NCBI RefSeq assembly: GCF_048128805.1
Contig: NC_135999.1
Coordinates: 22,245,659-22,309,658 of the forward strand
DNA length: 64,000 nucleotides
Reading direction: 5' to 3'
DNA from: Centroberyx gerrardi
Lineage: Eukaryota > Chordata > Actinopteri > Beryciformes > Berycidae
Shown: piece after piece, positions 831-46,999 of the stretch
Layout: each line of letters opens with the position of its first letter
Position numbering within the stretch: position 1 is the first letter of the stretch
Program-made: the position numbers and the translations under genes
Notes under the pieces: generated by a model
Database searches by the model: none
What the model saw: only the letters and a program-made list of their open reading frames with translations
What the model was told of the DNA's origin: nothing

Positions 831-3800
831 GACAGAGATCTACGGCCAGAGGAAATGGAAGGTACAGAGATATCAAAAGCTTAATCCAAATCCTCACTCC
901 CATCTCTCGCTCTGTCAGTCGCTCCCTCTTTCTCCCTGCCCCACGTTCCCTTTCAGATTTTCTCTTTCGCTCTGAAACCCAGATGGAGGATATGTTCTTT
1001 AAATTGTGGAATTTGAAAAGAATGTACCACTTTTCCTGACCTTGACCTTTCCTGGAAATCACTGTGACTTTGTTTGTAATGTTGTTGTTACATATGCCAG
1101 TGTTTTTTTGTTTTTCAATTGTCAAATAAAATAAACTGCACAAGATCAAAGTAAAGGATTATTATTCAAAGGAAAGGATTATTCTACACAATTGGAGCAC
1201 AGCTCCACACTTATTCTTACCTCCAGTCTGGCTCTCACTACCAAACTCCACATTCACAAGAATGGGGAACAGGATTATACTAATTTGATTGTGAAAAAAT
1301 GGTAGCTGTTATATTCTCTGTAAAAACTCAGGCAAAATAGGCAAATACTTCTTGGATTACTGAAAAAACCCTTTGAATAAAAAGGCCATTATTTTGGTCG
1401 TTGTTAAATTATGGTCTAAATTGCAGTGTTGGCTGCTGATCCCATGGGTTTTGGAGAAGTTAACTGCACAGTAACTGAAACTAATCAGAATTCATATGTG
1501 AGTTGGACCATCCAGGTACTTTCAGGTCATCTGGGTACTTGAAATCTACAACTAATGTGCTAATTGTGATACACGTCTCTCTTTATGCCAGTTAGCATTG
1601 CAAAGTTATTTATTTACAGGTTGCTGACAGCCAAATACCTTATTAAAACTTGTAACATCATGACAGGCAAATATAAAATAGATGTTTTGATTTAGTTTAC
1701 CTAAGATCTAAGAATATATAATTAGGATGGGAATCTACACTATAGCGTGTTTGTCCCACTTTGCCCTGCTTCTCCATGTGTATTAATATTGACATAAAAT
1801 TTTAGATTCCTTCTTTGACCCAGGCATATAAAGCCTTGTAATGACTAAATGTCTAAAATAGTATTTATGGATGAGCCCTTTTGCATCCTAAGTATTGGAT
1901 CTCTCTTTCTGTCTCTATCTCTTTCCTCCTCACACACTCTGTCTCACCATACACAATGCAGAGCTGCGTGAGGCGTTCAGGGAGTTTGATAAAGACAAAG
2001 ACGGCTTCATCAGCTGTAAGGACCTTGGCGAGTGCATGAGGACGATGGGATACATGCCCACAGAAATGGAACTGATAGAACTCAGCCAGCAGATTTGTGA
2101 GTCCTGCACGCATACCTGCCACATACACACACACACACACACACACACATATGCACGCACGCACGCAGATGTATGTCATTTAAAAAGATGTCACACCTAC
2201 TTTTATAAATTTTTTGCTGACTAGAGGGTAAAGTTGACAATGAACTAAAGCGACTATACATGTTATAATCAATTCAGATTTTTTTCTTGACTTTTTAGGA
2301 AAAGTTGACTGAGCATGCATGCTCTTTTTCAGTACCATGCTGCTTCACATTCATACAGTTACACACATTCACATTTGGAGGCTGCAGTACATCCACAGTC
2401 TTCTACAGGAGGTAGAGGTTGTGTGCCTTGCTCAAGGACACCTTCCTGGTATGTGGATGTCCGCAGGCTTCACCAAGGATCCTGACTCCTACCGTACTGC
2501 CTGGTGTACGAGCGCACGCTGTATTTCCCTTTTGCAGGGCTATGCACGTCCCCGCAAAGAGCTACGAGTCCCCTAAGCACTGCACATTGCGAAAAGCGTT
2601 ACACACAAACAAACGGCTGTTACAGAGGTGTATACTCCTCCCGAGCGCCTAATAAACATCAGTTAACGATTTGTTTTGTTTTATTTTCCCACTAGGTGGG
2701 GGCAGAGTGGACTTTGATGATTTTGTGGAGTTGATGGGTCCCAAGATGCTGGCTGAGACAGCAGACATGATTGGAGTCAAGGAGCTGAGAGACGCCTTCA
2801 GAGAGGTGAGCACCATCAGCTGGGCATCTAACTGAATACATTAATTTACACTAACAGTCAAACGTTTGGACACACCTGATTGAATGTTCTGTTTTTCATT
2901 ATCTTAAAGCCATTTTGATCTAAAGGCTTATGCCTAAATGCTTGAAATTTGTTTCTTAGACAAATATAAACAGTGAAGTTGATGCCGATGCATGAATTTC
3001 TTTCCAAAGCTTTTGCCTTTCCATCAAGGCAAAGGGCGGCTACTTTAAAGAATCTAAAATATAAGATAGTTTTGATTTAGCACCTTTTTGGTCACTGCAT
3101 AAATGACCATTTGTGTTATTTCATAGTTTTGATGTCTTTACTATTATTCAGAAAATTAACATCTATTATTAGGAAAAGTAATAAAATGACCTTTGAATGT
3201 ATCCTCATGGCCTGCTCACTTACCTACGTCTACAACTCTCTCTCTCTACCTCATTCCCCCTCTTATGCCTGTCTGTTTCCATGCTTTCTTAATTTTATCA
3301 CCGCCCTCTCCATTTTTATTTTTTTCCCCCCAGTTTGACTCCGATGGCGATGGTCAGATCAGCCTCGGGGAGCTGAGGGAGGCCATGAAGAAGCTGATGG
3401 GGGAGCAGCTCAACCACCGCGAGATCGACGAGATCCTCCGAGACGTAGACCTCAATGGGGACGGGCAGGTGGACTTTGAAGGTGAGCAAGACTATAGGCG
3501 CGTACCATGTGACCGTGACGTACTGGGTTCGAATCTGGTCTGGGACCTTTGACGCATGTCCCCTTCTCTCTCACCCAATCTTTCCTGTCTCTACTGTCAA
3601 CTTTAAAATAAAGGCAGAAATGGCGCAAAAAAAATCTAAAATCTAAAAAAAGTATTTCTTAATAGGAGAGAAAGGCCTCTGAAACTGCATTTAGGGCATG
3701 TTACACTAAAACCCTCCTTTCAAACCAGCGCAAATGAAATTATTTTAGGCTTGATAGAAGTTTATTGAGGATGAGTGGTCAATCCCACCGATTTAATGGC

Positions 3801-8483: not shown

Positions 8484-10966
8484 TCATAAAGCCTTCCAAA
8501 TGCTTTTTATACTCCCGATTAAATGTTTCAGATCACCTCTTTCCCGGCATCTTTTGAAGTCTCCTATCAATCTCTTTTTGAAGGCATGCACGGTCTCGCT
8601 GTAGTCAACAGTGTATGGAGCCATAGGTGGAGTCCCATGCCAAAGCTGAGGAATGTACCAGCTGCAAGTGTCTGGATCATACTCCATCACATCTGAGATC
8701 CTAGTGATGTTCTTCTGCTTCATCCTGGGGTCCGTCACGATCATTTCATTCAGCTGTTCCATCAACTGTTTATCCCTCTGCTTCCGTTCATGAGTGGGCA
8801 TGTCGGACATATTTGTATGCACAAAATGACACAGCGGCTTCTTGCCCACATCTTTTGATCTAATGAACGCATGAAGCACAACCTCTAAGATGTCTTTCAT
8901 CTCTCTGGAGTTGTCCTTGGAAATACTGACGATTGTGGCATCACTGAGTCCCACAGCAAGGCTTGCTACTTCCTTGTCACGTTCATGACTGTCGTCCTCT
9001 TGGGCCAGCTGATGTGGTTTTAGTCCCTCGGTGTCAATGATCATGATGCAGTCACACCCTAATTCCAACCTGGCTTCTTTGTTGATATTGATTAGTTGCA
9101 TGAAAGCACCCCTGGTGCCTCTTCCTCTACTGACAGCAAACCTGACACCAAACATGGTGTTGAGGAGAGTAGATTTCCCTGTGTTTTCACCTCCTATGAT
9201 GGTAATGATCTTGATCTTACTGTTGGAATGCATAATATAGTGAAGTTCGGTAAGTACACCAGTGATCCATTTCATCGGGATGTTTGATGCATCTCCATCA
9301 ACAAGCTCAACAGGGAAACCGTCCAACAGCATCTGAGCGCACAATGCGGGGAGATGTTCCATGATTTTTCTTTGATGGCTGTATTCTGGCAGATAGCAGG
9401 TATATTCATATAACTGCCCACACTCACGGAAAAAGTGTTCCAGCCCTAAAGAACAGTCAGAGATTTGCTTGTCGATCTTTGCAATTCTGTCTTTTTCCTG
9501 GGGAGATGTCTGGCATAGGTCTTTGTACTGATCCTGCAAACTTGACAGCTGATGCCGGGACAGGTTGTCCAAATCTATTTCCAACCATTTGAGGAAATAG
9601 TATCGTTGCACCTCTGAAGTCACCACCCCGTGAAGGAAGCCTGACATTGCAGCTGTCATCTCAAGTCTTTGCTGTTTCCTTCTACATTCTTCCTCCTTTC
9701 TTTTCAGAGACTTGCTGTAGTTATCAATCTTTTGATCCCCAGCTTTTCGCAGTCTGCAGCTCTCGTTTTCCAGCCAAGAAAGTTCTTTCCACACATGTCC
9801 CTGAGAAGGAAGTTGTTTGTTTTTGAATTCTGTGGCATTGGTTATATCCCCGGTGATTTTGGTTACATTCTTCCTGGCACTCTGACATTCCTCACAATCC
9901 TCATCAACCAGAATCCCACAGCAACGAGCTTTGCTTGCCATATTTTCCACTGAGACTTTGTTTGGGCGGCTTTCCAGCATGTTAATGACCGATTCCTGGA
10001 GGGCTTTTGTCAGTTCTGTATCATTCCTTTTCTTTTGACTCACGTTAGTTGTCTTTAAGCTGGGTTTCACTGTCATCCTTTTTAGCGTAAATGTTTTCCC
10101 CTGAAAACTGCTAACCAAAAAAAGCTTTGCCTTCCCATCTCTCCCTTCCAAAATCTTGAAGTAATCTGCTTCTGATTCATCACAGAAAATGTAAACAGCT
10201 GCTGATGTCTGACAGAGGAATGAGAATTGTTTGTCAAAGACCCTGATGTCTCCTCTGAGGTTGGCGACGGCCACAGGATCAGTGAAGGTGTCCGTGTTCC
10301 TGTTCCCACATGGGAGGTACCAGCTGATTTCAACTAGCCCCTCTGAAATCCTCCTGGGAACATCACCACACTCCATGTTACGATGACAAAATGTGTTGTG
10401 GTACTGCTGAGGGTTACTAAGCAGTTTGTTCAAGATCTGAGACTTGGACAAGTTGCTTTTCCCTAGCCTGGCAAATGAAACCAAAGGAATATCAGAGAGG
10501 ACAATTCTGTCCTCACAGGTCAACTTTGTGAATGCATGGTTGGAAGGTCTAAACTTCCTCACAATTTCACGCATGGACCACAGCATCATTGTGATTTCTC
10601 TTGTTTCATGGTTGGGCAGCAAGAGCGGGATGGCAAACTGGCACAGTGACATTTTCAGAACTATCTCCTGCTGAAGCAAACCATCTGAGCAGAGAAACAA
10701 TGCCGTTATCAGGTCCAGGGGATTAATGGCATTGCTGTTATCTCTGTCAAAGTTGTCAACATAACTGGACACACATTTGACACTTCTAGCATTCACGTTC
10801 ACCATCATGAGTCTCTTCAAAAAGGCCCCGGGAAGTGATTGCATGGTTTCAAGTTTTTTCTCTGATATATCATTTTGATTCATCTCAATGATAGTACTTA
10901 GTGTGAGCTTGTTTTCATACTGGTCTTCAAGTCCAATCTTCGATAGCACCTTCCTGAGACAGGGTT
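8484..10966 (-). CDS. last exon: complete URGCP/VLIG-family large GTPase domain (826 residues)
   Basis: One 2,483-nt exon, phase 1 acceptor at 10966 (TTCACAG), ending IKSIWKAL and TGA at 8486-8484. Early residues (KIGLEDQYENKLTL, then NPLDLITALFLCSDGLLQQE) follow the N-terminal region of URGCP. The middle has LVEISWYLPCG and VAVANLRGDI. The G domain has P-loop GGENTGKST near exon residue 590, a DTEG motif near 640 in place of DxxG, and LWHGTPPMAPYTVDYSE near the end. Human URGCP, as recalled, ends just after the same region (LWHGAPPMA, then about 50 residues), so this is a natural URGCP-type end and not a truncated 2,400-residue VLIG. A GTG at 10949 reads as an ORF start but is internal to the exon. 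Confidence 0.95.
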
Positions 10967-13900
10967 CTGTGAATCAACAGGAACAGACCAGAGTATGATT
11001 AGAGCAAGTTATATTTTGCACCTTATTAGGATACCCAATAGCTATTTTTTTTTTTTTTTTTTTTTCTTGAGTGGGTTCACTTATCACACTACAAGTGAGA
11101 ACAAAAGTGAGCAAAACTGTAACATTAAAGAACCCTTTTCATCATAGTCACTTAGCAAAAAGAAACACCTTTTTGACCCCACCCTTACAAGTATAAAAGG
11201 GCACCGACTGTGATGCTTGCAACATTTTAGCTTGGCTGCAAGTTTGGGTGATATCTCACACTATGAATAATATCTGAACTTTCTAGATACCTTACTAAGA
11301 AAGTTTTTTTACAATTAAGTTATCATAATTGTATTTATTTGTGCTTAAAGGGCAGAAACATAGTATAATCTCTTACTTGTGTGTATAGTTGTAGAGACAG
11401 GCTTACTATGCCTTTGGTTGTTGAGCACTGATGAGACGGAGATAATGTACTCTGTGTCAGGTTTTAAGTCAGAGAACATCTTGTAGCAGTCCTCAGTGTG
11501 TATTGCCAGCGGCTCTTCTCCTGGGCTTTTGACAGTTAAAAGGAATCGATGTGGGATTTGCTCCATTTTGTCTCCTTTGGTCCATTTTAGGGACAGAGCA
11601 GTGGCCTCTGAATGCTCTTCTGTCATGTTTCTTGGGGCTGGCACCTCTGGAAAAGACAAGTAATTTGGTTATGAAAATGTTTAGCTTCTATTCATTCAGT
11701 TAAATGTGAACACTGCAATCAAAGGGATATGAAATGTCTTGGCATTATTTACATTACCTGTGAAAACAGATGCTGTGGCCCATACACTTAAATTGCCATC
11801 GTTGTCCTCTGTGGCCACACTGAAGTAATATTTTTGGCCAAGTTTAAGATTGTTTATTTCAATTCTATAAAGGTCTTTAATGGTTATGTAGTCCTCAACT
11901 TTCTCAGAAGATCTCCATTTCACTCTGAAGGTCCTGGGTCCCTCCAGTCCCTCAGGACTTCCCCAGCTCAGGATCACAGAGTCTGGCTTCATCGACAGGA
12001 ACGTAATCTCACCAGGAGGGGGCACCACTGCCAAAAATAACACAATAATTTAGTGCCACCAACAGTGTCACATACTTTAAGCAGGCTTACATATGAATAC
12101 TACTAACCTATCACTGCCATGCTGTGAAAACCTTATGACTCAGTTTTTTTAAATTTCTGATCCTACTGCCACAAACTTAATTCTTACTGGCTCTGGTATG
12201 TGTTTCCTCTGTGCTGCTTACCGAAGCTCTGTTCATTAAGTGAGGACTTTCAGAAACTATGGGTCAGGCAAGCTCACATAGGGAAAGAAGAACGTCATCC
12301 AACTCAATGCCTAGAGCTAGCTTTTAATGTGCAATAAATCAATAAACAAACAAGGTCTGTCTTTGTGGCAACTGGGTTACTGATCTTGGAGCTGTAAAAA
12401 ACACAACCCAGAGGTTGTGTAAAGACGTCTGAGGCACACTGAAGTGGTGAATAAGTCAAAAAGCTTTTATTATGACATGGCCAGGCAAAAATACAAATAT
12501 GTTTCAGCTCACAAGGAGCCTTCACCATGCAACACCCTAGTGAAGAGCCATATAAAACAAACGTAAAATGTATTACCCTGTATGCAATTTTGGTCAAGTT
12601 GTCCTCTGAAGCATTCACTTACCTGCACCAGGTACAGCAGGGTCTTGGCATTGCTCTCCAACAACAATCTGTAACAGCATCAGTATAACTAAGCAAAAAG
12701 TTACACTCATTCTGTTATTTCCCCATTTTCTGAGTTCTGTTCTATTTTCAGAAAAGTCACAACGCACCTGTCCTGCAGCATGCGGTGTCTTCTGCAAAAT
12801 GACGTCATGCCGTCTATGCTTTCCCTCTGAACAAATGTTGCAAATCTGCATCTGATCAGTCCTGCAGAAGAAATCTAGAGGCTTGTGGTAGTGATGGCAG
12901 CGTTTCTCCTCGACCTCGCGGGACACATCTCTTAGTATGTGTCTCTGCATTGCCGACGCTGTGTAGTGCGGCCTAACATGGTAATCGCAGTAGGAGATGT
13001 TACAGGTCAGACAGGTCTTCACAGCTTTAGCCCGGGAGCAGATGTCACAGATCACCTCCCCTTGTCTGTTTTCAATTAAAGAAATACAACTTAAGTTGTT
13101 GTTTATTGTGTCATCCTTGACTTTTTCTGCTTGTAATGCACTGGACTGTCATGATATTCTGTGTGTTTTACATGCTGTTCTCTGCCTTTAAATGGAATTG
13201 TTGAAGAAACTCAATCAACTAATCAATCAGTGTAACTAAACAGTATGTTAATATAGTGAATAAAAAAGTGTCCCACATGTCATCATGTAGAAATGATTCC
13301 TCCTCATAAGAATGGAAATCCGCTGATTCAGCAGTCTTAGATGATGATGAATATCCAGATGTGTCAGATTCTCTTCTCACCAGATAAACCCTACAAGGTA
13401 AATTTAACACCGACTGAGCTTGAGAGGCATAGTCAGAGAAATTACTTGCATCTGTCATCACGTTCCCTTGTCTCCTCAAGTCTCTGCAATTAGAAGCTAC
13501 GAGAAATTGTACCTATGGTAATGGAAACTTAATGTAGCTGGGCGGATTAGCTATTTTTTTCTAGAAAGCTTATTTTTGTTCTCTGAATTCTAAAAGATAA
13601 ATGGGCAAGTTTATGGAAAATTATGCAAAATGATAAAGAGCATAAAGATTAGAAAATAGAGCGATTAAACAATGTGTTAATTGTTATGTACTAGATGATA
13701 GTAAAAATCCAAGTCGATTAATCTAAATACTATATGAGATGGCAGAACATTACATTTCTATAGTTTATCAATACAAATACAAATTGGTATTTTGTATTTA
13801 TTAAACGTACTAGGCAAAAAATGAAGTCATCATCAGCTGGTTTATAAAGGGTTGGCATGGTTTACATAATAAAAGTGTATATTCCGTCTGTTTGTGGTGC

Positions 13901-16900
13901 TTAGTTTGTTTTTAGACTAGTCAGTTATGGTTACATAGCTTTAAATCAATAGTGAAATTAGTTGAACTCCCTATCCATAATAATGATTACTGATTAGTAC
14001 TGAGGCAGCCCTGTAGACATATGTAACAAGCATAAGTAATTAGCCTACAGTAAGTCACAATATTACTGGGACTTGCTTACTGTGTGTCTTTGAAATGGAG
14101 AGGGGAATTCTTTGAATCTCTTCTCTTCTCTGTCTCATAACCAGAGTATGCAGACACTGGTGTCTCCCTGCTGTAAAAATAACAACATTAAATGCAAAAA
14201 TACAACTTGTAACTTTCCTTATGCATACGTTTGAATTAAAAGTGAACTTTACCCAGAGGATGCAGACTCTTCGCCCCTCAGTCTGAAAATTATGCAAAAA
14301 CAAAGTTTTGGAAATTACAAATATTTCACTCAGTCTTTGCAACTCTGTCTTTCCTTTCAATTAATTGAAGCCTGAATTATGTTTGCTTCAAAGATAATCA
14401 AAAAATACTTATTTTATTATCAAATTTATTGAATTATTGAATTATATATATTTTCTTTTCCCTCCCCGCTGCTGCTTACCAGCATACCAGGAGAACACGT
14501 GATAGTTTTCTGCTCCATTACTTTATCACTTGAAAATGTCAATCAGTTTAATCAAATTAATTAATTATGAGAAAATCCCACATGTTGCATCTTTAAAATG
14601 TAGACCATGACTCACTAATCAACTCTTTCCATAACAAAACACACAAACTGCAATGCAATCACGCTATGGCCTAAGTTACTGCAATATTTGGTGTATGATT
14701 CTTACCGGTGGTTGATTGCTCTGGAATCGTCACTTTGCATCACATAAGCAGCAGATGGAGAGGTGATGAGATTTTCTGCCTTCAACCTGAAAATTACAAC
14801 ATATACTGTATATACGTATATATAAGTGAAGAGAGATATGACAGCTTAGCACTGGACATATTCAAAAGTATGCAGTCACCGTACTTGAATGGCTCCCCAG
14901 GAAAACACACTTGTCCACCCCAAAAATGGGGCACCCCAAAAGCTGCTTTCCTGTAAGGAATTCAACAGAGGAAAAAAGTACAATCATTAATAATTACCAA
15001 TTAAAATGACTTTGGGAAACATGTTGAAAAGACAGAGAGAGAATTCGTTAAAAAAAACAAAAAAAAAAACATCATGGCATTATGATATTGTCTTTGAGCT
15101 TGTGTCTGAAAGGGAATACCTGCAGTCATCAGGCATAGCAGAACAAGTTGGCACTGAGAGTATTGTAATTTAAGACTATTTTTGACTGACCAAAATAATC
15201 CTACACTTTACATCATACTATATACAGTATAATATAATGCACTTCTGGCCATTTGGGTGTTTGTTAAAACTGAAAATATTACTATTGGATCTGAGCAGTG
15301 TCCATAAAGGCAGAACAAAGCTTTTTCAAAGTTGCTATGATCAGTTAATGCACTTTGTTCCCACTCAAGTTCCCATAGAGAAACATATCTTCTAAGGTTG
15401 CAATGGAAGGGGGCAAAGTAAGTCTTGATTGTCAGATTGACCGATGGCCTGAATGACACAACTGATAAAAACCAGCATGAGAATTGGGCATCAGAGAGTC
15501 AGAACTTTATTTTCCCAATTAAAACATTTTAGAGCCGAAATCTTTTTAATTAAGTCTACAAATTTTCCAAGAAGCAAAAAGGACTTTACTTTTGAATCGT
15601 TATAGCTACAATATTCAAGCTATAGGAGGATACTCTCTTACTGCTTCTCTCTGAAATGAAGAGGGATATTCTTTGAAGACTTCTCTGTCTCATAACTGGA
15701 GTAGCTATGTAGACACTGGAGTCTTTCAGTCCTCAGATGTAAAAATACAATGTGTAGATTGGTTTATACAGACAACTGAATAAAAATGAAACTCCAGATT
15801 AAGGCAGGGGAAAGACTGTGCAACTGAGAGTGAGGTCACCAATGGGAAAAACACCAAAACCGTTGGGGGGAAAATCATACTAAGTTAAACATGAAACATG
15901 AAATATTTAAGCCTTTCTTACTTTGTATCTCTGAAATGAAGAGGGATGTCCTTTGATGACTTCTCTGTCTCATAACCAGAGTATGTGGACACTGGTGTCT
16001 CCCCACTGCAAGAATAACAACATAAAATGCAAAAATACAATCTATAACTTTGCTTATCCATACGTTTGAATTAAAAGTGAACTTTACCCCTTAATGTCAG
16101 ATGTTTTAAAAGCATCGTAGCAAAAATTCTTTACCACACAATATTTTTCCAGGAAAAAAAAAGCCACTGACAGCTGTGACTTGTAAAAATAATGCTATAT
16201 CAAAGTTATGGTAGTATTCAGGTATGTTGTCTTACTGTTTTTCTCTAAAATGAAGAGGGATATCCTTTGACGACTTCTCTGTATCACAACCGGAGTATGT
16301 AGATCCTGGTGTCTTCCTTCTGAAAGAATTACAAGCGTCTCAGTCCTCAGATGCAGAAAATACAATCAGTATTCAGACATTTGAGTAAAAATAAAACTTT
16401 ACAGCTTGTGTGTTGTCACAATTGTACAGCGGCTTTAACCATGCAATATTTTCCATAATAACAGTCCCAATTTGTTTTATTTATTGACTAATTGATTTAT
16501 AGTCGGTGTAAATTGTCAGTTACATGTGTATATTACTGGGTTTTTAAAGCTAATGACAGCAGTTTCTTTTATAGAGGCCTCAAATCAAAGTTCAATTTAC
16601 TTCATAGATCCCTTTTTTTTTTTTTTTCCTCTCTTGACTTTCAGGGATTTTGTAATTAGGTCACCAAAAGCAGAGAACGTATTTTTTGAAAGAATCATGC
16701 TACATCAAAGTTACATCATACAAATGTTTAAGCCAGGTGTTCTGTTTTACTGTTTTTCTCTGAAAACAAGAGAAATATCCATTGATGACTTATCCCAAAA
16801 TGGATTTATAGCATTTTAAAATAAATTCCGTTATATAACGATTGACATTACAGCTATGCAGTATGTGACCTTACTGTTTGTCTTTGAAAACAAGAGGGAT

Positions 16901-19900
16901 ATCCTTGGAGCCATCAGACTTCTCTGTCATATAACTGGATGTTGACCGTGGTGTCTTCAGCCTGAAAGTCATCTTCTAATTTTAGGCAATGTTTTCAACA
17001 TCACACAAATTTTTAAGCATCCTACAGACATTTTAATGCAACTTAACATCCATCCCCTATCAAGCTGCTGCAGAAATACCAGGAGTATACAATAGATTTC
17101 TTGTGTCAAATCGATATTTGAGAACGTATTTTTTGAAAGAATCATCCTACATGAAAATACTACACATAAAATTACATCAGAATACACATTATTAAGCCAG
17201 GTATTCTGTTTTACTGTTTTTCTCTGAAAACAAGAGAAATATCCATTGATGACTTCTCTGTCTCATAACCAGAGTATGCAGAACCTGGTGTCTTCCCTCA
17301 AAAATACCCTCAAAAATACTACTTATAACTTTGCTGATGCATATTTAAAAGTGAAATTTACCCCTTGTGTCAGATGTTTTAAAAGCATCATAGCAAAATA
17401 CTTTAACACAGAATATTTTCTTCCAGGGAATAAAAAGCCACTGACAGCTGTGCCTTGAAAAAATAATGCTATATTATGGTAGTTATGGTAGTATTCAGGT
17501 AAGCTGTCTTACTGTTTTTGTCTGAAATGAAGAGGGATATCCTTTGAAGATTTCTCTGTCTCATAACCGGAGTATGTAGATCCTGGTGTCTTCCCTCTGA
17601 AAGAATAAAAATCTTTAATTTATCTGATGCAAAAACACAATTTCTAAATTGGCATACAGACAATGGAATTAAAAGAACATCCATGTTTTACACACAATGC
17701 CAGAAGCTTTCTTTGTGAGGTTTTCATGTGCGCTTAATCTGCCATTTAAAGCAGTTCACATCAGTTTCTCTATAGGGCTTCACTCTAAAAATAAAAATAA
17801 AAATTACTTTGGAAGACATTTTTAGAGATTGCAGTGTGTTTCTCACATAGGGAGCATTTTAAAAATCCCCAAATCCCAAAATGAATTTATAGCATTTTAA
17901 AATAAATTCCGTTATATAACGATTGACATTACAGCTATGCAGTATGTGACCTTACTGTTTGTCTTTGAAAACAAGAGGGATATCCTTGGAGCCATCAGAC
18001 CTTTCTGTCATATAACTGGATGTTGACCGTGGTGTCTTCAGCCTGAAAGTCATCTTCCAATTTTAGGCAATGTTTTAAACATAACACACTTTTGTCACAC
18101 AATTCAAATGTTTAAGCATCCTACAGACATTTTAATACAACTTAACATCCATCCCCTCTCATGCTGCTGCAGAAATACCAGGAGTATACAATAGATTTCT
18201 TGTGTCACATCGATATTTGATTTTGGTGTATAGTGGGGGTTCACCCAAGGCAACAATTTCTGATTTTGCCTATCTCAGTAATATGTATAATACAATCTCC
18301 CACTAATTTTCATAACCAATTAAGACATTTTGTCTATGATAAAAGGCACCACAATTTCTGTCTTTGCAAGTTGTTTACTGGTTATCATCTTTTTATTTAT
18401 TAATGTGACATATGACAAAAATCTCACAAATCATGAAAGCAAAACTGGTTTAGAGATAATTTGAAATACTTTGTGTGGTTTTGATTAGGCAAACAAGACC
18501 ACAAGTCTTTACTTTTTATCTAAAAACAGAACTAAGTTCAGTCAGGAACACTCATAAAATCAGCATGAAATGAACTATTTATTGCTCAAATGGTTATACA
18601 GTTGTATTTAGTGGTGCAGGTCCTGCTCTCTAGGTTGCAGGGCTGTAGTCAAGACCACCATGATCGAGTCCAAGTCAAATCCAAGACCAGGTGCAAATGA
18701 GTTTGAGTCAAGAACAAGTCCAAAGGGGGTCAAGATCAAGTCAAGACCGGGTCCTAAACAAATCAAGTCCTATTCAAGTCCAACAGAAATAAGCAATAAA
18801 CATGCCTCTCTAAACACAAAAATTATATATAAAGGGTTTCCTCAGAGATTAGAACAGAGAAATTTTCCTGCGATGGAGCTCTGTAGCCTATTATACCCTT
18901 CAACATCCATCTAATCAGTGATTAGGATTTAGGTTTGAGGGTCATTGCATAGACAGGTTTCTGAAATACCTTAAATTGTTTGTAGTTCTTGAGAGGAAAT
19001 AAACTGAATATCAGTAGAATCTTAAAATCAATTCTAAAAACAATACACAACCAATGAAGAGAGGCCAGGACAGGGGTGATATGGGCATGTCTCTTGGAGT
19101 TGGACTAAGATCTGAGTCAAAGAAAACGCTATTTGACGTTTTCTTACTTTCTGCCTTTGGCATAAATAGTGACGTCCTCTGAGCCAGCAGACCTCTCTGA
19201 CAAAGAATCATCAGAGAATTTAGACACCAGACTCTTGTGGCCTTGTGATCAGATACACAGATATCTAAAATCTCCATCATGGTGGGGGAAACTCCAAGTG
19301 AGAGCACAAGGTCAAGGGTATGCCCTTTACTATGTGTGGGTTCTTTGACGGACTGGACCATGTTGAAAGACTACAGTCGTGGGAGGTTTTCTTACTTTCT
19401 GCCTTTGGCATAAATAGTGACGTCCTCTGAGTCAGCAGATGACTCTGACAAAGAATCATCAGAGAATTTAGACACCAGACTCTTCACATCCACCCTGAAA
19501 AGTATTAAACAGCAAAGTGATTTAATATTTTGCTTTGCTGACCTGATAATGCACTTGTTGTGTGGAACAGCTGAACACAGTTTGTATGGGACATTTTCAG
19601 CAGCCATTAGCTGCCATTAGCTGGGTCTCACAAACATATCGCTTTTGTTTTGTTGAGTTTCATGTTCCAACTTGAATTGAAGGATCACAAGCTCCTCTAT
19701 GGACTGAGAAAATTCTTCAGCCTTATAAAACCCATTCAAAACCCCACTGGATAACATCAAAAATGCATTGTCATCAAGGCTATGTTTCTTAGTTCCTGAA
19801 AAGTTGAGATTTTGCCAGATTGTTTTTCACTTCTGTATGTACAGTATGTATCATCTCACGTGTGTGCATGCCTTTCACAGGTACATATACTTAGGGGAGA

Positions 19901-20326
19901 CATCTTTATCAGGGTTCAGTGCTGGTGAAGTACTGTAGAACTAGTTGAAAAAATTAATGAAAACATATGGACCAAGATTGTGTTTCTGTCTTTTGAAAAA
20001 CATGTTGAATTGATAAATGAACAAGTTTAGCACCAGTTTGACCTTGCATACTGGTTGTATGAATGATGGCCAGGCACAAATATCCCATCTGGGCCTCCAG
20101 TTGTTCCCAAACCTATCAGATGTCTAAAGGAGTGACTGAAATATTTATCTTTGGGAATGAAAGTAATGATCGCTTCTACCATTAAAAAGCACAGTCTAAG
20201 AAACACACATGCATGAAGTGTGCACATTCACTCTCATCTTCAGAGAAGACCTGACTTTCTCTCACCTCATGGGTTCTAAAGGTTTATGGATTTTTACCTT
20301 ACAGTGCCTTCCTCTGAAGAATCCAT
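8484..20326 (-). CDS. mosaic protein: peptide-repeat exons + two B-boxes + two FN3 + URGCP/VLIG-type GTPase
   Basis: Model of 15 coding exons, 5' to 3': 20326-20298, 19494-19396, 18042-17956, 17596-17513, 16961-16875, 16319-16236, 16005-15922, 15731-15642, 14786-14706, 14170-14081, 13065-12768, 12668-12623, 12027-11758, 11646-11377, 10966-8484. Every junction has AG/GT sites and matching phase, and the sum is 4,182 nt (1,393 residues). Domain order: repeats of ~28-30 residues (core YSGYETEKSSKDIPLHF), a finTRIM-like double B-box without RING, a short linker, two FN3 domains, then a full-length URGCP-like GTPase. Repeats of this kind are known at the N-terminus of fish-specific NLRs, double B-boxes in finTRIMs, and the GTPase in URGCP and interferon-induced very large GTPases. 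Their union in one frame suggests an inducible cytosolic immune protein (inference). No signal peptide or membrane segment is in the model. The domain exons are solid; the first exon and the exact set of repeat exons used are less certain, and a break into two genes between repeats and B-box cannot be excluded without RNA. Confidence 0.75.
11377..11646 (-). CDS. exon: fibronectin type III domain 2 of the mosaic gene
   Basis: 270-nt symmetric phase-1 exon, 90 residues from EVPAPRNM to TTIHTS. FN3 hallmarks are the LSLKWTKGD strand, the LKPDTEYIISV core (tyrosine corner) and TTIHT at the end. One FN3 domain per exon with phase-1 borders is the standard arrangement for this module. The donor is ACAA|GTAAGA at 11377/11376. 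Confidence 0.9.
11758..12027 (-). CDS. exon: fibronectin type III domain 1 of the mosaic gene
   Basis: 270-nt symmetric phase-1 exon, beginning VVPPPGEITFLSMKPDSVIL with the SVILSWGSPEG strand, then LKLGQKYYFSVATED (tyrosine corner) and ASVFT. Equal in length and phase to the next exon, which points to an in-gene exon duplication. Acceptor TTGGCAG at 12028 and donor CAG|GTAATG at 11758. Confidence 0.9.
12310..12600. repeat. dispersed repeat in FN3/B-box intron
   Basis: The minus strand holds a run with TGAAGGCTCCTTGTGAGCTG, AAACATATTTGTATTTTTGC and AATAAAAGCTTTTTGACTT, the layout of a retroposed fish repeat family. A related motif is at 36,402-36,512. There is no coding frame. Confidence 0.4.
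12623..12668 (-). CDS. exon: 15-residue linker between B-boxes and FN3
   Basis: 46-nt exon (phase 0 in, phase 1 out), reading IVVGEQCQDPAVPGA plus one base. Acceptor CTGTTACAG, donor GCAG|GTAAGTG. The flanking intron continues the open frame upstream into a hydrophobic MSVTFCLVILMLLQIVVG. If an ATG at 12709 were used, this could serve as an alternative first exon with a signal peptide and give a secreted FN3 form; that is speculative. Confidence 0.75.
12768..13065 (-). CDS. exon: tandem B-box zinc-binding module (finTRIM-like)
   Basis: 298-nt exon, phase 2 in and phase 0 out, 99 residues. Box 1 is CDICSRAKAVKTCLTC with SYCDYHVRPHY. Box 2 is RCHHYHKPLDFFCRTDQ with CNICSEGKHRRHD. The cysteine/histidine ligands of both boxes are present. 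The closest known pattern is the double B-box of fish finTRIM/TRIM25-like proteins, but no RING lies upstream, so E3 ligase activity is not predicted. Acceptor GAAAACAG at 13066; donor CAG|GTGCGT at 12768/12767. The first base A completes the CA left by the upstream repeat exon, giving Gln. Confidence 0.92.
13219..13483 (-). CDS. candidate exon, possible alternative terminal exon with diverged repeat
   Basis: A phase-2 acceptor (AATTGCAG at 13484) opens the frame DLRRQGNVMTDASNF, then NLPCRVYLVRRESDTSGYSS, which continues to TAG at 13219-13221 with no phase-2 donor. A second acceptor-like TTACCTTGTAG lies inside it, and the segment RESDTSGYSSSSKTAESADF resembles the repeat core. Used, it would end the protein before the B-boxes; skipped, the 14081 to 13065 join keeps frame. 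It could also be a dead copy. Confidence 0.4.
14081..14170 (-). CDS. repeat exon (90 nt), last before the B-boxes
   Basis: Symmetric phase-2 exon: acceptor TTTTTACAG, donor CACACA|GTAAGC. It reads RETPVSAYSGYETEKRRD and then SKNSPLHFKDTQ. The insertion of two residues relative to the 84-nt copies (KRRD for KS) keeps frame. Confidence 0.8.
14706..14786 (-). CDS. repeat exon (81 nt), divergent copy
   Basis: Symmetric phase-2 exon with acceptor AATTTTCAG and donor CACCG|GTAAGAA, reading LKAENLITSPSAAYVMQSDD and then SRAINHR. It is the most diverged complete copy but keeps the aromatic, acidic and serine pattern and the phase. Its AYVMQSDDSRA core is near the SxxSMKSDxS pattern of fish NLR N-terminal repeats. 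Confidence 0.75.
15642..15731 (-). CDS. repeat exon (90 nt) with locally shifted start
   Basis: Symmetric phase-2 exon reading TERLQCLHSYSSYETEKSSK and then NIPLHFREKQ. The first third aligns at DNA level with neighbours but is read in another frame, restored by an extra AGC-containing insertion before SYSSYE. Acceptor ATCTGAG is weak, donor GCA|GTAAGA is strong. Confidence 0.7.
15922..16005 (-). CDS. repeat exon (84 nt)
   Basis: Symmetric phase-2 exon: acceptor TTCTTGCAG, donor ACAAA|GTAAGA. It reads GETPVSTYSGYETEKSSKD and IPLHFRDT, the consensus form. Confidence 0.82.
16236..16319 (-). CDS. repeat exon (84 nt)
   Basis: Symmetric phase-2 exon reading RKTPGSTYSGCDTEKSSKD and IPLHFREK. The tyrosine of the YSGYE core is replaced by Cys. 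Acceptor AATTCTTTCAG, donor AAACA|GTAAGA. Confidence 0.82.
16751..16790 (-). pseudogene. truncated repeat exon (3' half only)
   Basis: Only the part encoding SSMDISLVFREK and the donor AACA|GTAAAA remain. The 5' half and acceptor are missing, and upstream is the start of the duplicated block found again at 17,875. It is unlikely to be spliced. Confidence 0.65.
16875..16961 (-). CDS. repeat exon (87 nt), subtype 2
   Basis: Symmetric phase-2 exon reading LKTPRSTSSYMTEKSDGSK and DIPLVFKDK. Acceptor GACTTTCAG, donor AAACA|GTAAGG. Nearly identical to 17956-18042 (Lys for Arg in EKSD), 1,081 bases away. Confidence 0.82.
17215..17296 (-). pseudogene. repeat exon with frame-breaking acceptor change
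   Basis: DNA-level copy of the repeat (would read GKTPGSAYSGYETEKSSMD). The C before the acceptor AG has been lost, so the usable AG leaves an 82-nt exon that reads TGA after nine codons. It is probably skipped. Confidence 0.65.
17513..17596 (-). CDS. repeat exon (84 nt), consensus type
   Basis: Symmetric phase-2 exon: acceptor TTATTCTTTCAG, donor AAACA|GTAAGA. It reads GKTPGSTYSGYETEKSSKD and IPLHFRQK, the clearest consensus copy. Confidence 0.85.
17956..18042 (-). CDS. repeat exon (87 nt), subtype 2
   Basis: Symmetric phase-2 exon reading LKTPRSTSSYMTERSDGSK and DIPLVFKDK. Partner of 16875-16961; the surrounding intron DNA is duplicated with it. Confidence 0.82.
18600..18790. repeat. degenerate tandem repeat of AAGTCCAAGACC-like units
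   Basis: Runs of GTCAAGACCGGGTCC and AGTCAAGAACAAGTCC variants form an imperfect array common in fish dispersed repeats. The ORF through it is an artefact of the repeat. Confidence 0.55.
19148..19236 (-). pseudogene. partial copy of the first repeat exon
   Basis: Matches 19396-19484 closely (SLVSKFSDDSLSE, then EDVTIYAKGRK) and keeps the donor GAAA|GTAAGA, but the 5' end and the phase-2 acceptor are absent. It lies beside a LINE fragment. Confidence 0.6.
19240..19370 (-). mobile_element. LINE fragment (endonuclease C-terminal part)
   Basis: The minus-strand frame reads VKEPTHSKGHTLDLVLSLGV and later ICVSDHKA. THxKGHTLDLVLS and SDH are signatures of the apurinic-type endonuclease of L2/CR1-like LINEs. 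The fragment is flanked by the two copies of the first repeat exon. Confidence 0.7.
19396..19494 (-). CDS. first repeat exon (99 nt)
   Basis: Symmetric phase-2 exon: acceptor ATACTTTTCAG, donor AGAAA|GTAAGA. It reads VDVKSLVSKFSDDSLSESSA, then DSEDVTIYAKGR. SDDSLSESSADSEDV keeps the acidic/serine pattern of the other repeats. The phase joins the upstream AG from 20298 to give Arg. Confidence 0.75.
20298..20326 (-). CDS. candidate start exon of the mosaic gene
   Basis: ATG at 20326-20324 begins MDSSEEGTV plus AG, donor AAG|GTAAAA, with acceptor CTTACACAG at 20334. Phase 2 at its end fits the 19494 exon exactly. The acidic, serine-rich start resembles fish NLR N-termini (inference). A second donor (ACT|GTAAGG) would not fit the phase. 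Confidence 0.5.
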
Positions 20327-23105: not shown

Positions 23106-27617
<4,512 letters not shown>

Positions 27618-29830: not shown

Positions 29831-30220
29831 CATGTAATCTCATGTGGGATGGGCCATTAATTTGGCATGATACGAAAATAAAATGTCATTCATTCATTCA
29901 TTCATTCATTCATATAGCATATGCATATTATATTTTTTGCTGGGGTCCATTCCCCCAGAATCAATTTCAGCCACACATATTGAGCACACTTGTTTAAGGC
30001 CATCAGTGCCCCTCCACTTTCTTCTCCACCTTCTTTTTTCGCCAAAATAGGTTCAGAAATGGGGGTGTGGCTGACAGCATTTCTGGGGCCTGGATCCAGG
30101 CAAATATATTCCCCATTTACCACCCAATGGAGATAAAGCTCTGACATTACATCATGATCATCAGTACCAGACACTGGCCAGCAAGGTTGGCCATAGCTTA
30201 GGTCACTCTATATAGGAAAC

Positions 30221-32734
30221 CTACATCTCACAAATCCACTCTTGTTCTATTTTACAGTTCTCATCATTCCAGTCCCCTTTCCCTGTCGCACGATGCCAGA
30301 ATTCCACACAGTCCTGGTTTCTCCCATCAAAGCTGTTGGGCTGGTCTTTGCCCCAGTACCTGCAGTACAGAGAGACATCCAAAAGGAGAATAAATGTTGT
30401 TTCCATGACTTTACCAATCCCTGGACGATTGAAAACAACAAAGAGGATATGAATTAATTAATAGTGGCAAGAAAAACAGTTGTTGTTGTTTTTTTCAATA
30501 TCATGCAGAGGTATGAGTTCAGTCTCTTACGCTGTGGTCAGTGACGTCCCGTCCACCCACTTCCAATGTGCTTCTACTCCTTCGTCAGTTAAGCCAATCC
30601 AGACTTCTTTGTCAGCTCCATACAAACCATTGATGAATGACTTAGAGGGAAGAGAGAGAAAATTCAAAACATTATTGCAATGTTTTTCACGCAAATTTAC
30701 GTGAACAAGCGCACAGCAACACATACTTGCACACATACATATAAATGCAAGCGCACACAGATAAACGCACCATTTCTTCTGGGCTGTTGATGATTGCCAG
30801 GTCTGCCCCTTTGCTTTGACAGTCCTGTCTGCTCTGGATCCAGGATTTACGGACAGTAGAAGTGAAGTAGCAGCTATTCTGAAACTTCTTCCAGCCAGGA
30901 AGACAAGTTTCTGCAAATTTAATATATACATTGATCAATAAGTAGATAGTGAGAACAAGTCAGTGCTCCCTGCCATCATTTTGGAGTATTTCCATTCTTT
31001 AAATAGTTTTTGATGGTTCCTCGTGGTCAAAAAGTGTATACCTTTATTGATTTGTTTTTCACCAAATGGAATTGTCAGCAAACATGACTTTTCACTTGTG
31101 CTGTGTGTTAAGAGTGGAGCAGAGCAGCCCACCTTTCTCAATAATACACCTTCCTTAATTGTTGAAAGAATAACATCCAAGGCCGGATTGCAATCCAAGC
31201 CTAACCTAGACAACGTTCTGAAAGGAGAGCTCTCAACTATTACAAAAGTATGCATTGCTTTTCCTTAACTGTTTCTAGAATTAATGCTGACTACAAAGAT
31301 CCAAACTATGCTTTTTCCCAGACAAGGAACCATTTGGGTGAATTATGCTGAATTAATTATTTTATTTCTGTTTCCTTTTGCTTACCTCTCATCGTTGCAT
31401 TCAGTCTCTCAACTTCCCTCTGTAACTGCTCTCTCTCTGCAGTCAGGTTGTCGCATCTCATCTTTAACTTGTCTCTCTCCGCAGTTGTGTTGTTGTAACT
31501 GATCTGTAGCTGGTCTCGTTGTTGAATCAAAGCAGCATAACTAGCCTGCAGCTGGTTTGTCCCTTTTTCAAGTAAGTTGTAACTGGCCTGTAAATTGTCT
31601 CTCTCCTTAGTCAGGTTGTTGTGACTGCTCTGTAACTTGTCTTTCTCACTGGTGGAGGAGTTGTGGCTGATCTGTAACTTCTCTACTTCCTTAATCATGG
31701 AGTTGTAACTAATCTGCAACTGCTCTCTTGATCTGGTCAGGTTGTTGTATCTGTTGTGTAAATTGTCCTTGTCTTTGGTCAGTGAGTTGTAATTGGTCTG
31801 TAACTCATTTGTCCGTTTGACCACTGAATTGTAACTTGTTTGTAACAAGTCTTTGGCTTTAGTCAAGGCATCGTTATTAGTCTGCAATTGGCCTTGACTG
31901 TTTTTTAGCTGGTCTTTCTCTTTTGTTAAAGCATTGTTACTGGTCCGTAAGTGGCTTTCACTAATTTTAAGATTGTTTCTTTCTTTTGTCAGAATATCGT
32001 TATTGGTCCGTAATTGGTCTCTCTGTCTAGTTAAGTAATCGGTATTGCTCTGTAACCGGGTTTGGATGCCTTGTAGTTCCCTTTTGTCTTTAAGCGTGGT
32101 CTTCAGGTTCTCCTGTATGTTGTCTTTCTCTTTAGTCATGGCATTGTAGCTGTTCTCTTGGTCTCTCTTTACATTGCGATCTGCAGAAGAAGTGAGATAT
32201 TGATAAACGTGTCCTGGATTAATGATCTCATCTCAGGTAACTTCTAAAAAGATTAGAATATTTGACAAAATAGAAAGGTAGACTCACAGTGGACTCCCTG
32301 GCCTATGATCCCAGCCAGCAGGAGAACACACAACAGCCCCAGAAGGACTACAGTGGGCCTGAGAGGGCTCTTTCTCAACTCATGAACTGAATCACAGGAA
32401 GCAGTAGAAATGTAAAAAAAAGATGAAGTGATCTGAGGAAATTGTGGTTTTGTCAGCATGAGGGTAAATGTGGCTGACTAGGATATTGAACGGTTTCATT
32501 GCAAAATGCACCAAGTATATATGATTCTGTTGCTATTTTGAAGGTCCTGAAAAAGTATTGAATTGGCAAACAACTTAGACATTTCCACAGTGAGATTAAC
32601 TTTAACAAAAGCATGGTGGCTATCTCCTTTTGGAATGAAGCACTCATTTTATTACCTGAATATTGAAACCTGCTGCCATCCGCTGTAAGGAGCTTATAGC
32701 CATTTCGACCGTCATCAATGTCCATGGTTGTCAT
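30221..32734 (-). CDS. C-type lectin receptor A (CD209/CLEC4-like), type II membrane protein
   Basis: Exons 32734-32656, 32386-32288, 32180-31386, 30910-30771, 30640-30531, 30359-30221; phases agree (1,362 nt, 453 residues). The cytoplasmic tail begins [20 protein letters not shown] and has the YKLL endocytic motif. The membrane segment [17 protein letters not shown] is on its own exon. The single 795-nt stalk exon encodes about 18 coiled-coil repeats of 14 residues ([14 protein letters not shown] type) rich in N-glycosylation sequons. Three exons encode the lectin domain: [38 protein letters not shown] and GDWNDENC, ending WICEM. The Ca2+-site motif is QPN. An upstream in-frame ATG at 32761 adds MVARQSDST. 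Pathogen or glycoprotein uptake is inferred from the family. Copy A alone has a Cys in the stalk (KMRCDNLT). Confidence 0.92.
31386..32180 (-). repeat. 42-bp tandem repeat encoding the lectin A stalk
   Basis: The exon is a coding minisatellite: 14-residue units such as [28 protein letters not shown] and [14 protein letters not shown], two heptads each with Leu at the first position. The same 795-nt length occurs in copies B (39596-40390) and C (52739-53533). Confidence 0.92.
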
Positions 32735-34720
32735 CGTAGAGTCACTCTGTCTGGCAACCATCTCTGCATCTGCTTCATGGGTTTGACCTCATCAAAGTCT
32801 TATCAGAATTTCTGTAAACAAAAGATTTCACAGTCAGACTGAATTTTGGTAGCACTTTATAATAAGATTGTATTACCTAACATGAGTTAAACCTGCAATA
32901 AGCGATTTCAGACCCTATAACCAATCCTGAAACTAACATGTGCTACGTGGAGATTTTTTTGAGACGTAATTATATAAACAATTAGCCACACACGTGGGCC
33001 AGCTGTGTTGTTGTTTTCATCTCTTTTCTAAAGCTTGTTGTCAAACTCGGACTGAATCAGAGCTCCTCCCAGTCCATTCAGTAGCTTTTCATTTTAGTGA
33101 CAAGTACCTTGTCTCCTCCCTCACTGTTTGAAAGTGGCGCTCTCCCCCTCCCATCCCTGAAAAACATTCTTGTAATGGCGGAATCGATGAAGCGAGCGAG
33201 TAAACTTGTTCAAGTAGTAAACTTGCTAAAGTTCTAAAACTGAGACAGATCAGTCATTGACCAGTATTAGTCATTGATCAGTATTTACAAATACATTTGT
33301 TAATTACTTAGTCAACATGAAAAAAAAAATTCATGCCTTAAAGGATAAGGCTGGTGTTTTTTAATGCATTGCTTACCGTCAACAAATCCTATGAAAATAG
33401 CAAAATCAACAATGCTATACTCTACTTCTGTTACTTTCTGACTTCCCACGTATCGTTTTTAGCCGTCAACCCGGAAGTCATTGGCTCCAATTGTAAGCTA
33501 AAAACCTTGAAATACAGCTCACAAAGACAAAGTTTCAATTTTAAAGGGGGGGTATCCTAGGATGTGGCAATTCTTAGTATTTATGGTGATTTTGGTTCTT
33601 GGAGGTGTGAAGTAATCACAGTAAAAAAAAAATGGAATCATGTTACTATGCTGTTTCCCCACAGTCACCAACTATAAAACATGTCCCCTTGTACAAGCCA
33701 GTCAGATTTTGCTCCAGTTTCTATGTAGACACTGGACTGTCTGAAATCGACCAATCAGTGCAAAGAGGAGGGCGGGCCTTCCAGAATGGCCAGCCAATCA
33801 GAGCAGTAGCTCATTAGCATATGAAGGTGCTTATGTAAAACAACCTATTTTCTTGTAGGCGGGAAACAAACACTGGGAAGTGAATAGCTAAAGATATAAC
33901 TAAACGATTTTTACTGAAAAAAACTTAACAGATGTATTTTATAGACACCAGGTAATTATATAAAATTGCTGAAAAAGCAAATGATACCCCTCCTTTAAAA
34001 ATCGCTAACTGTTACCACGAAAAGTCAGACTGTTGTAGTTATTACCAAATCAAATTCAAATGGGAACAAATGCTTCATTACGCTGGGGACTATTTTCGGT
34101 GCTACGGAACTACTTTCCTGAGATCGCAAATGTGTTTACAGCTTATTAAGTTGTTTGAGGAAAAAGTCGGCTGGCCCAGTGCATCGCGATGATGAAATAT
34201 GCTGCCCAGAGCAACGGCATGGCTCTTTGAAGTGTTTTTAATCGTTTTTTTAATACAATGGAGTTCTATGGCTTCATTGGGCACCGGCTACATGGACGAG
34301 ACTTGTTGGCAAAACAAAATCATTGCTGATTTTGTTATTTTCATAGGATTTGTTGACGGTAAGCAATGCATTAAAAAACACCAGCCTTATCCTTTAAGCA
34401 TTTGTTCACCATCAATTAATGCATTAACTCGTTAGTTAATGCAACCTTATTATAAAGTGTTACCAAGTGTTACCAGAATATTTAAACGATCTAACTACAC
34501 CCTCTTTCCTCTTACATCTCCTTTGAATTGCATCCCCCTCTCACTTATTTACCTCCTCTACTTGCCCCAGTATGTTCATGTCTTAAAGAAAGACAATAAA
34601 GAAAATAAGAAGTAGTGTAAGTTGAAAATAAAGTAAGTCTTACCTGGGCTAGATAATGACAAATACAGCAAAACAACTGGAAATAAAATGATACTCCTCT
34701 TGAGCAATCAAGAAAACCAA
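32735..34720 (-). promoter_or_regulatory. 5' leader of lectin A
   Basis: The start-codon exon extends to an acceptor TTTACAG at 32812. A leader exon ends at donor CCCAG|GTAAGA (34644). The leader intron contains the piggyBac-like MITE. An ATG at about 32778 opens a 15-codon upstream ORF. In copy A the leader exon lacks the ATG seen in B and C. Confidence 0.5.
33342..34393. mobile_element. piggyBac-like MITE with TTAA target duplication
   Basis: 1,052 bp with ends AGGATAAGGCTGGTG and CACCAGCCTTATCCT. Terminal inverted repeats extend about 70 bp and are imperfect. It is flanked by TTAA at 33338-33341 and 34394-34397. The paralogous sites at 41,480 and 54,642 are empty and carry a single TTAA. 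There is no transposase. Confidence 0.88.
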
Positions 34721-36860: not shown

Positions 36861-38181
36861 AACTCAGTTGACTGCTGTTGATTATGCTTTTATTTTACAT
36901 GCACGGGAGAAAGGTCATCACCCTAGCAGTGAAATGATTCTTCACAGTGGACACTGGATACCTACTGGTATTTATGCTTTGCTCTGGGAGGAGCTAAGTA
37001 GTAAGAAGTGGAAACTTACATACAGTGACACCTACAGGCCTATAGTGGCACACAGTTTATATTCACAATTCCTCCACATTAGCCAGCAGCAGCTACTCAA
37101 CAATTGTTTGTCCACTTTATTATCTCCTTATTAGCTGATTTTCCATGCCATTTACTAATAAATGCCAAAAATTTTCAAAATCTTTACTTTCTTGTATCTT
37201 CACTGGAAATCAATGTATTTTCAATGGTTACCTCATGTCATACCACTAGGCAGAATAAAAATTCCAAGCAATACCATCACATATTTTTGAACAATTACGC
37301 TCCTCCGCCCCTCTTTCAAGAACTGATATCACATTGGTTTACACTGTCGAATGAACCCTCCCCACGTTATGTCCTGGCCCAATATCCTGTTTCAACAGGA
37401 AACACATCAAGAGAGCAAGATGCTCTCAAAAATGTTGTTTCATTGTGACTTTAAAATGGGTACAACCGCCACAGTTGCTATGTCACTCCCTGCCTGGGAA
37501 TCCATTAATGAGAGTGCCATTGTGCCCTTTGTCATTGGATCATCCTCAACCAATCACAGTAGCAAATGAGTGTGACATAATCTGACACTTTCCTCACCTG
37601 GGTAGACTGATCTGTAAAAAATTATTTATTTGTTAAAAATGCCACAGTTAGTTGATAGTTTCCTTATTTCAGTGTATCCCATACAGAACGATAGCTCCAA
37701 TATCTACTAATGTGAAACTGGGATCAGGTGCTAACAGGTATAAACTGTACAGAATGTATTTTTGAAAATCTCAGTACAATGCTAATATGATAATTAGCCT
37801 CTCTAAACCCATCTGCTCTAGCACCAGCAGGGCCAACTGGTAAATTAAACTTTTTCCAAATCCAAGTTCCAAAGTTACTCATCACAACAAAATACATTTT
37901 AGTTCTCAATGTCAACAACGCTTTAGGTTTGTGTGTAATTTGGTCAAATACAACTTTGGAACGGAAGCTATCTGCTCCTCTGAAACGAAGATGTTTGCTT
38001 CAGTTGCCCTTATTTTGCCATTAACGCCAATACACTGAGAGCAGATCCTATGTGCGATTTTTTTCCCTAACACGCTTCACAGTTGTATTTGTTCGACCCT
38101 GAAACTGAGGTTGAATAAGATCTCTGACCTACCATACACTGACCAGAAAGGTTGGCTATAAGGCCATTCTATATAGGAAAT

Positions 38182-41944: not shown

Positions 41945-42035
41945 CTGGGCTTGCTAGAGATAATAACAAATACAGCAAAACAACTGGAAATAAAATGGTA
42001 ATCCTCTTGAGCAATCCCAAGAAACAGTTAATCAT
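41945..42035 (-). CDS. leader-exon ORF of lectin B, signal-peptide-like
   Basis: ATG at 42035 reads MINCFLGLLKRITILFPVVL, then LYLLLSLASPG, and ends in phase 1 at the donor CCCAG|GTAAGA. Charged N-region, long hydrophobic core and small residues at the end look like a signal peptide. Spliced to the lectin start exon (acceptor TAG near 40,976) it would stop after four or five more codons, so it may act as an upstream ORF. Confidence 0.45.
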
Positions 42036-44792: not shown

Positions 44793-44850
<58 letters not shown>

Positions 44851-46440: not shown

Positions 46441-46600
46441 GTGACTCACAGAGTAGAGCGCGTACCGCATAAGGCTCAGTCCTTCCCGCAGCGACCCGGG
46501 TTCGAATCTGGCCCGTGGTCATTTGCTGCATGTCCTCCCCATACCTTCCTGTCTCTCTCTCACACTGTCTCTATCAAAAATAAAACATTAAAAAAAAAAA
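46441..46600 (+). mobile_element. tRNA-derived SINE, unit B
   Basis: Starts GGGCTCCCCGGTGACTCACA; box A region GACTCACAGAGTAGAGC and box B GGGTTCGAATCTGG; poly(A) end. The target duplication AAAAGGCTGCACTTG is at 46426-46440 and 46601-46615. The site is empty in unit A (near 35,995). Confidence 0.9.
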
Positions 46601-46950: not shown

Positions 46951-46999
46951 CTATATACATGCAATGTGTTCATGCGAATGGGGAACAGGCAGACATTTT

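Follow-up and report, generated by a model that had tools for sequence, protein, structure and literature searches.

The repeats of fish NLR proteins have been reported as restricted to NLRs (Howe et al.). Among the URGCP/VLIG-type large GTPases, GVIN1 forms a coat on cytosolic Burkholderia thailandensis (PMC11974893, PMC12133148), and in a salmon cell line a VLIG-1-like gene showed the strongest induction among antiviral genes (PMC4337061). Here we analyzed a 64,000-nt stretch of the Centroberyx gerrardi genome (the window, meaning the whole stretch), located at 22.25 Mb on contig C3, and found that its minus strand carries, from 20326 to 8484, one gene containing all parts named in a preliminary description, namely NLR-like exon repeats, finTRIM-like B-boxes, an FN3 pair and a URGCP GTPase, along with a URGCP domain. 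The preliminary description knew of no protein uniting these parts. This held within the open-access literature searched, where no paper on such a union was found, as judged by the titles and abstracts of the top results and with subscription papers not covered; the gene is not unique, however, since 33 other public fish proteins share its architecture.

The gene begins at an ATG at 20326 and ends at a stop at 8484. Along the minus strand (to which all coordinates of this gene refer), its start exon is followed by the repeat exons, one exon for both B-boxes, one exon for each of the two FN3 domains, and a large exon for URGCP and GTPase. The corrected model comprises 17 exons and 4302 nt, encoding 1433 aa before the stop, with every junction in phase. 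Fifteen exons joining in phase over 4182 nt had been proposed without an exon list; such a join exists (4194 nt in our initial version), and correction by homologues brought it to 17 exons. Because the exons were picked with phase in view, the chance figure of (1/3)^16 for phase agreement was not used. When the 15-exon protein was used as a query, 1399 of 7998 candidates were homologous at E ≤ 1e-3, and the 120 top-ranking ones were taken as the homologue set. The top match, P0001, is a 1140-aa protein from the same C. gerrardi assembly annotated as 'up-regulator of cell proliferation-like'; it agrees with the window model at 1135 of 1140 aligned residues.

Family-built profiles for the repeat, B-box, FN3, URGCP and GTPase parts were used to scan the window model together with the 120 proteins. 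The search for the same domain order in fish proteins, which had been suggested as a check, identified the repeat-B-box-FN3-URGCP-GTPase order in 35 of the 121 proteins (the window, P0001 and the 33 public proteins mentioned above), including those of tuna, swordfish, mackerel, grouper, sea bass, sea bream, trout and pike, among others. None of the 121 showed the five parts in a different order. This shared order and the 1399 homologues argue that the gene structure is not a product of chance. Shorter forms consisted of FN3-URGCP-GTPase (24/121) or URGCP-GTPase only (40/121), with five odd forms (5/121); absences of parts are weak evidence, as many database models are partial. The five-part proteins are annotated as 'up-regulator of cell proliferation-like' or similar.

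Phylogenetic analysis of the G domain (129 tips: the 120 proteins, the window and eight paralogues from the same genome, a ninth being dropped for coverage) placed the window in a 49-tip clade with a support of 1.0 that contained none of the eight paralogues. The named tips of this clade are, we assume, acanthomorphs; the next branch (support 0.92) adds two pike sequences and one mudminnow sequence with B-box and FN3. The C. gerrardi genome contains 11 GTPase-family matches, corresponding to about 10 genes, and the window gene is the only one on its contig. In 11 stretches, each of 10 kb, upstream of the other URGCP-type genes, no B-box or repeat was detected at E ≤ 1e-3; FN3 exons were found near the paralogue copies on C23. 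Sequence comparison shows the window gene to be the C. gerrardi counterpart of a conserved teleost gene.

The repeats of the window gene are 28-30 residues long and encoded one per exon, all in phase 2-2: R2 (17956-18042), R3 (17513-17596), R4 (16875-16961), R5 (16236-16319), R6 (15922-16005) and R7 (14081-14170; RETPVSAYSGYETEK...). To compare them with fish NLRs, 120 NLR sequences, including five from C. gerrardi, were selected using a query that itself bore the motif. A profile constructed from 70 repeat units of the GTPase proteins matched 114 of the 120 NLR N-termini at E < 1e-3, compared with 0/120 shuffled sequences, 0/120 reversed sequences and 1/120 of the remaining NLR parts. A stricter profile of seven percomorph units, from which the window and salmonids were excluded, matched 113/120 NLRs; shuffled and reversed controls were 0/120 each for this profile and for one built from the window's units alone. 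In the reverse direction, the NLR profile matched 28/121 GTPase proteins at E < 1e-3 (controls 0/121). Profile-profile comparison of GTPase and NLR repeats gave a probability of 99.1 and, counted as a single comparison, an E-value of 1.8e-18. No matches at E < 1e-3 with any of the four profiles were identified in the 780 C-terminal residues of 96 GTPase proteins. A repeat search with a 48-residue piece of P0030 recovered only itself, among two candidates.

Exon structure agreed with the profile results. At least 150 FISNA places were found in the C. gerrardi genome (150 scored of 215 candidates), and 11 of 12 NLR repeat exons, read by a simple splice-site score in 12 loci drawn from 30 of the 150 listed, were in phase 2-2. 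The earlier claim of NLR-like repeats was therefore upheld for the family, by profiles in both directions and by exon phase, and is weaker for the window's own units (34/120 NLRs matched, E = 0.017 and E = 0.15; see below). These units are a diverged branch, tied to the NLR repeats via the rest of the GTPase family. The presence of the repeats in both the GTPase and NLR-C proteins is most simply explained by exon shuffling, and an NLR-repeat match outside NLRs, with the same exon phase, is a new finding of this study.

The double B-box exon (12768-13065; phase 2 in, phase 0 out) has TRIM25 as its best solved relative (E 1e-12). At least 150 B-box places exist in the C. gerrardi genome (150 scored of 195 candidates), and the three best of those scored, other than the window exon itself, were 43-47% identical to it. 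One of these, L054, is a one-exon RING-B-box-coiled coil-B30.2 TRIM; the other two, L055 and L056, are RING-B-box exons of what we take to be the finTRIM/TRIM25 kind. L055 and L056 possess a phase-0 donor in the context ...AAA CAG/GTA or ...AAG CAG/GTA; the window exon ends in ...GGA CAG/GTG, also in phase 0, at the matching place, and L054 continues there without an intron. Thirteen Cys/His positions were invariant in 17/17 rows of a B-box alignment from which the Eleginops row had been dropped and in which two rows (window and P0001) represent the same gene. A search for a RING within residues 1-426 gave no match, even with E allowed to reach 1. In the 17-exon model the B-box match ends at residue 403 and FN3 begins at 428, and the 24 residues between them leave no room for a TRIM coiled coil. 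The finTRIM-like assignment was thus supported as far as membership of the TRIM25/finTRIM class, with neither RING nor coiled coil. In models from Antarctic-clade fishes (P0028, P0019, P0022 and P0079, from Eleginops, Dissostichus and Pseudochaenichthys) the B-boxes are decayed or undetected and the GTPase is kept, possibly through lineage-specific loss or because the models are partial. Separately, precomputed Pfam annotation assigns RING-type domains to some salmonid NLR models (P0156 and P0161), another case in which TRIM and NLR parts are combined.

The two FN3 exons (11758-12027 and 11377-11646, both phase 1-1) correspond to two fn3 matches in Pfam, which also detected two B-boxes, and fold comparison agreed with the proposed FN3 pair; this comparison barely tested the B-boxes and the URGCP domain. 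The large final exon (8484-10966) encodes a short helical segment, the URGCP domain, the URGCP-type GTPase and the stop, and lies in an 829-aa open frame (10973-8484) that contains both domains in full. The predicted URGCP GTPase was confirmed by a URGCP_GTPase score of 518 bits (cut-off 55; 396/396 positions), a URGCP score of 368 bits (cut-off 27) before the G domain, and a GBP/atlastin/Sey1p fold for the G domain. The G1 (GxxxxGKS) and G3 (DxxG) motifs are present as GGENTGKS and DTEG; G905, G910, K911, E960 and G961 are invariant across 51 sequences, and D958 is conserved in at least 90%. The stop lies 37 residues past the Pfam G-domain match (792 of 829) and 30 past the family-built profile match, and the protein is therefore without the long C-terminal part of the giant VLIG forms. 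The short helical segment (10966-10780) is SAM-like by eye; a search of solved sequences with it, up to E = 10, returned only the unrelated FlgM (E = 1.3).

The remaining exons were compared with those of homologues. The start exon E1 (20298-20326; MDSSEEGTVR, donor AAG/GTAAAA) resembles MDSMEEDNARV of tuna P0002 and MDSKEEDDVRV of P0005, and R1 (19396-19494; VDVKSLVSKFSDDS... type, phase 2-2) corresponds to the NVKxLVxxF exon of the homologues. A second, partial R1 copy without a good acceptor lies at 19231-19148, and a possible 5' exon at 21020-20986, with a strong start context (ACCATGG) and donor CAG/GTAGGC, would open a short upstream frame that is not in register with the main start. Alignment of 17 homologues, P0001 included, revealed an FGVPHFWGGxV exon, whose window copy at 14885-14950 (KAAFGVPHFWGG...; KAAFGVPHFWGGQVCFPGEPFK) is comparable with YGMPQPWGGHV (P0002) and FGVPHYWGGHV (P0003). 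Its donor is GTACGG, which fits both phase and homologues; a version with donor GTGACT broke the phase and was dropped. The next exon, LKAENLITSPSAAYVMQSDDSRAINH (14706-14786), follows in the same order as in the homologues, and the exon SDTSGYSSSSKTAES...EEESFLHDD (13277-13390) has a counterpart there despite its weak donor, GTGGGA. A 30-nt candidate (14253-14282) is in phase, has no clear counterpart in the aligned homologues and remains doubtful.

Most of the 17 aligned homologues also carry a linker between B-box and FN3, the window counterpart of which is a 46-nt exon (IVVGEQCQDPAVPGA; 12623-12668). Adding this exon made the canonical B-box donor CAG/GTGCGT usable, and the donor GTGC/GTTGTG employed in P0001 and in the 15-exon version was dropped; the donor of the 17-exon model is the better of the two. 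Read-through of the B-box exon to 12618, with a leader-like stretch (MSVTFCLVILMLLQ), was considered as a separate small secreted protein and rejected, because its 3' part is the linker exon of the homologues.

The repeat array shows signs of turnover. Repeat exons and their introns have been duplicated within it, with 15918-16329 matching 17211-17606 (84%) and 16792-17121 matching 17873-18220 (92%). Decayed copies were identified at 17.3 kb (17214-17297; no in-frame acceptor), 16.8 kb (16750-16794; truncated) and 15.7 kb (15641-15706; upstream frame broken).

With a little better than even confidence, we regard this locus as a conserved teleost gene for a short URGCP/VLIG-type large GTPase with a TRIM-type double B-box and NLR-C-family repeats, whose product is most likely a cytosolic defence GTPase. 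The coat formed by GVIN1 and the induction of a VLIG-1-like gene make a defence role likely. The protein would reside in the cytosol and, like GBPs and GVIN1, might assemble with itself upon GTP binding. Zinc-finger contacts of the B-box pair could add clustering and the FN3 pair could act as a rigid spacer, while the disordered repeat run may provide a multivalent docking strip for targeting, with a copy number that differs between species. Once assembled, the protein might enclose an intruder in a coat or cage, or else serve as a platform for signalling, and its repeats, being common with NLR-C proteins, could bind the same partner. The earlier suggestion of a sensor or scaffold with B-box-driven oligomerisation is plausible. 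In a bolder version, which we consider quite improbable, the repeats would be a docking code common to cell-autonomous immunity in fishes, with one exon cassette bringing the many NLR-C receptors and the GTPase to one hub, such that NLR sensing would recruit a B-box-clustered, GTP-driven coat.

Several results weigh against the defence GTPase reading and the NLR link on which part of it draws. The interferon data concern other members of the family, and the 5 kb preceding exon 1 contain no GAAAN2-3GAAA interferon-response site. The idea of a coat is taken over from GVIN1, which is not known to have repeats or B-boxes. The NLR sample was preselected for the motif by its query; the profile of the window's units alone matched only 34/120 NLRs, the NLR profile scored the window model at only E = 0.017 (0.0013 for P0001), and seven single NLR sequences gave nothing better than E = 0.15 against the window. 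For the C. gerrardi NLRs P0137 and P0195, the top window matches fell on repeat exons at E = 0.20 and 1.3. B-box-FN3-URGCP-GTPase proteins without a detected repeat account for 17/121, and the Eleginops model has lost B-box cysteines, though the B-box profile still matched it; the B-boxes are therefore not essential everywhere, and neither they nor the repeats are indispensable.

Rather unlikely, in our estimate, is the view that the repeats form a nearly neutral, disordered leader without special function, maintained by duplication of symmetric exons, and that the working parts are only the B-boxes, FN3 and GTPase. Conservation is lowest in the N-terminal part (median identity 30-53%, with 4-9 of 15 sequences alignable, compared with 64-73% for the domains, with 15/15 alignable), repeat copy number ranges from 0 to 6 among the proteins examined, and decayed copies lie beside intact ones; yet the motif is recognisably retained in two otherwise unrelated protein families and in many species. 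Instead of forming a coat, the protein could act as an adaptor for NLR-C signalling platforms or regulate them. B-boxes can cluster proteins, as established for TRIMs, and the repeat family is common with NLR-C proteins, for which this genome has at least 150 FISNA places, but many members of the GTPase family lack a detected repeat, and we judge this role unlikely.

A function in cell proliferation is very unlikely: the name 'up-regulator of cell proliferation-like' was assigned by annotation pipelines and transferred by similarity, whereas the repeats and B-boxes are common with immune families. Least probable of all is that a nearby NLR or TRIM gene, or what remains of one, owns the repeat or B-box exons and that the database models are chimaeric. 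P0001, which starts at an ATG inside the intron before R4, joins R4, its sole repeat, straight to the B-box exon and omits the start exon, all remaining repeats and every exon that separates R4 from the B-box exon, is a point for it and against our model; the decayed copies in the array are another point for it. However, the seven NLR proteins identified no NLR core in the 64,000-nt window (best E = 0.15). On C3, the FISNA places among the 150 scored are all confined to the first 2.6 Mb, about 19.7 Mb from the window; of the 150 B-box places scored, the next on this contig are at positions 3.8 and 23.3 Mb. The R3 variant has six matches in the genome, 6/6 of them at this locus, and the identical part order recurs in the 33 other public proteins, with phases fitting throughout.

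Elsewhere in the window, exons of an EF-hand protein (1892-3552, plus strand) and a zinc-binding dehydrogenase exon (24572-24883, minus strand), which we take to be part of a prostaglandin-reductase-like gene, flank the locus. The segments 36852-49803 and 49939-63968 form a tandem segmental duplication, with 95-99% identity in its larger pieces, which measure 721 bases to 8 kb. On the minus strand, a C-type-lectin-like gene occurs in three copies, at 30165-32890, 38130-41066 and 51254-54209; it includes some 290 residues that resemble a coiled coil.

Taken together, the shared exons point to exchange between three large fish defence families (NLR-C, TRIM and URGCP/VLIG), and the unusual make-up of the protein points to an undescribed cell defence machine behind a bland database name. 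The GTPase offers an independent context for testing the role of NLR repeats, and as the tree separates the gene from the remaining URGCP-type genes of its genome, a knock-out should be easier to read than among many NLRs.

Compared with fish NLR-C proteins (FISNA-NACHT), the window protein has the same 28-30-residue repeat family, one per exon and in phase 2-2, but shows no FISNA, NACHT, LRR or B30.2 match. With finTRIM and TRIM25-class proteins it has in common a B-box1-B-box2 exon and a phase-0 exon end as in two of the three best TRIM exons, whereas the RING, coiled coil and B30.2 are missing. Precedents for RING/B-box-type fingers joined to a GTPase are TRIM23, which carries a small ARF GTPase, and RNF112, which turned up as a fold match and has a RING but is not known to contain B-boxes, FN3 or repeats. 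A long C-terminal part, absent from the window protein, is found in the 1500-2300-aa fish proteins that are named very large GTPase. With the URGCP/GVIN (VLIG) large GTPases the window protein shares full-length URGCP and URGCP_GTPase domains and a GBP/atlastin-like G domain, and in front of these it adds repeats and B-boxes.
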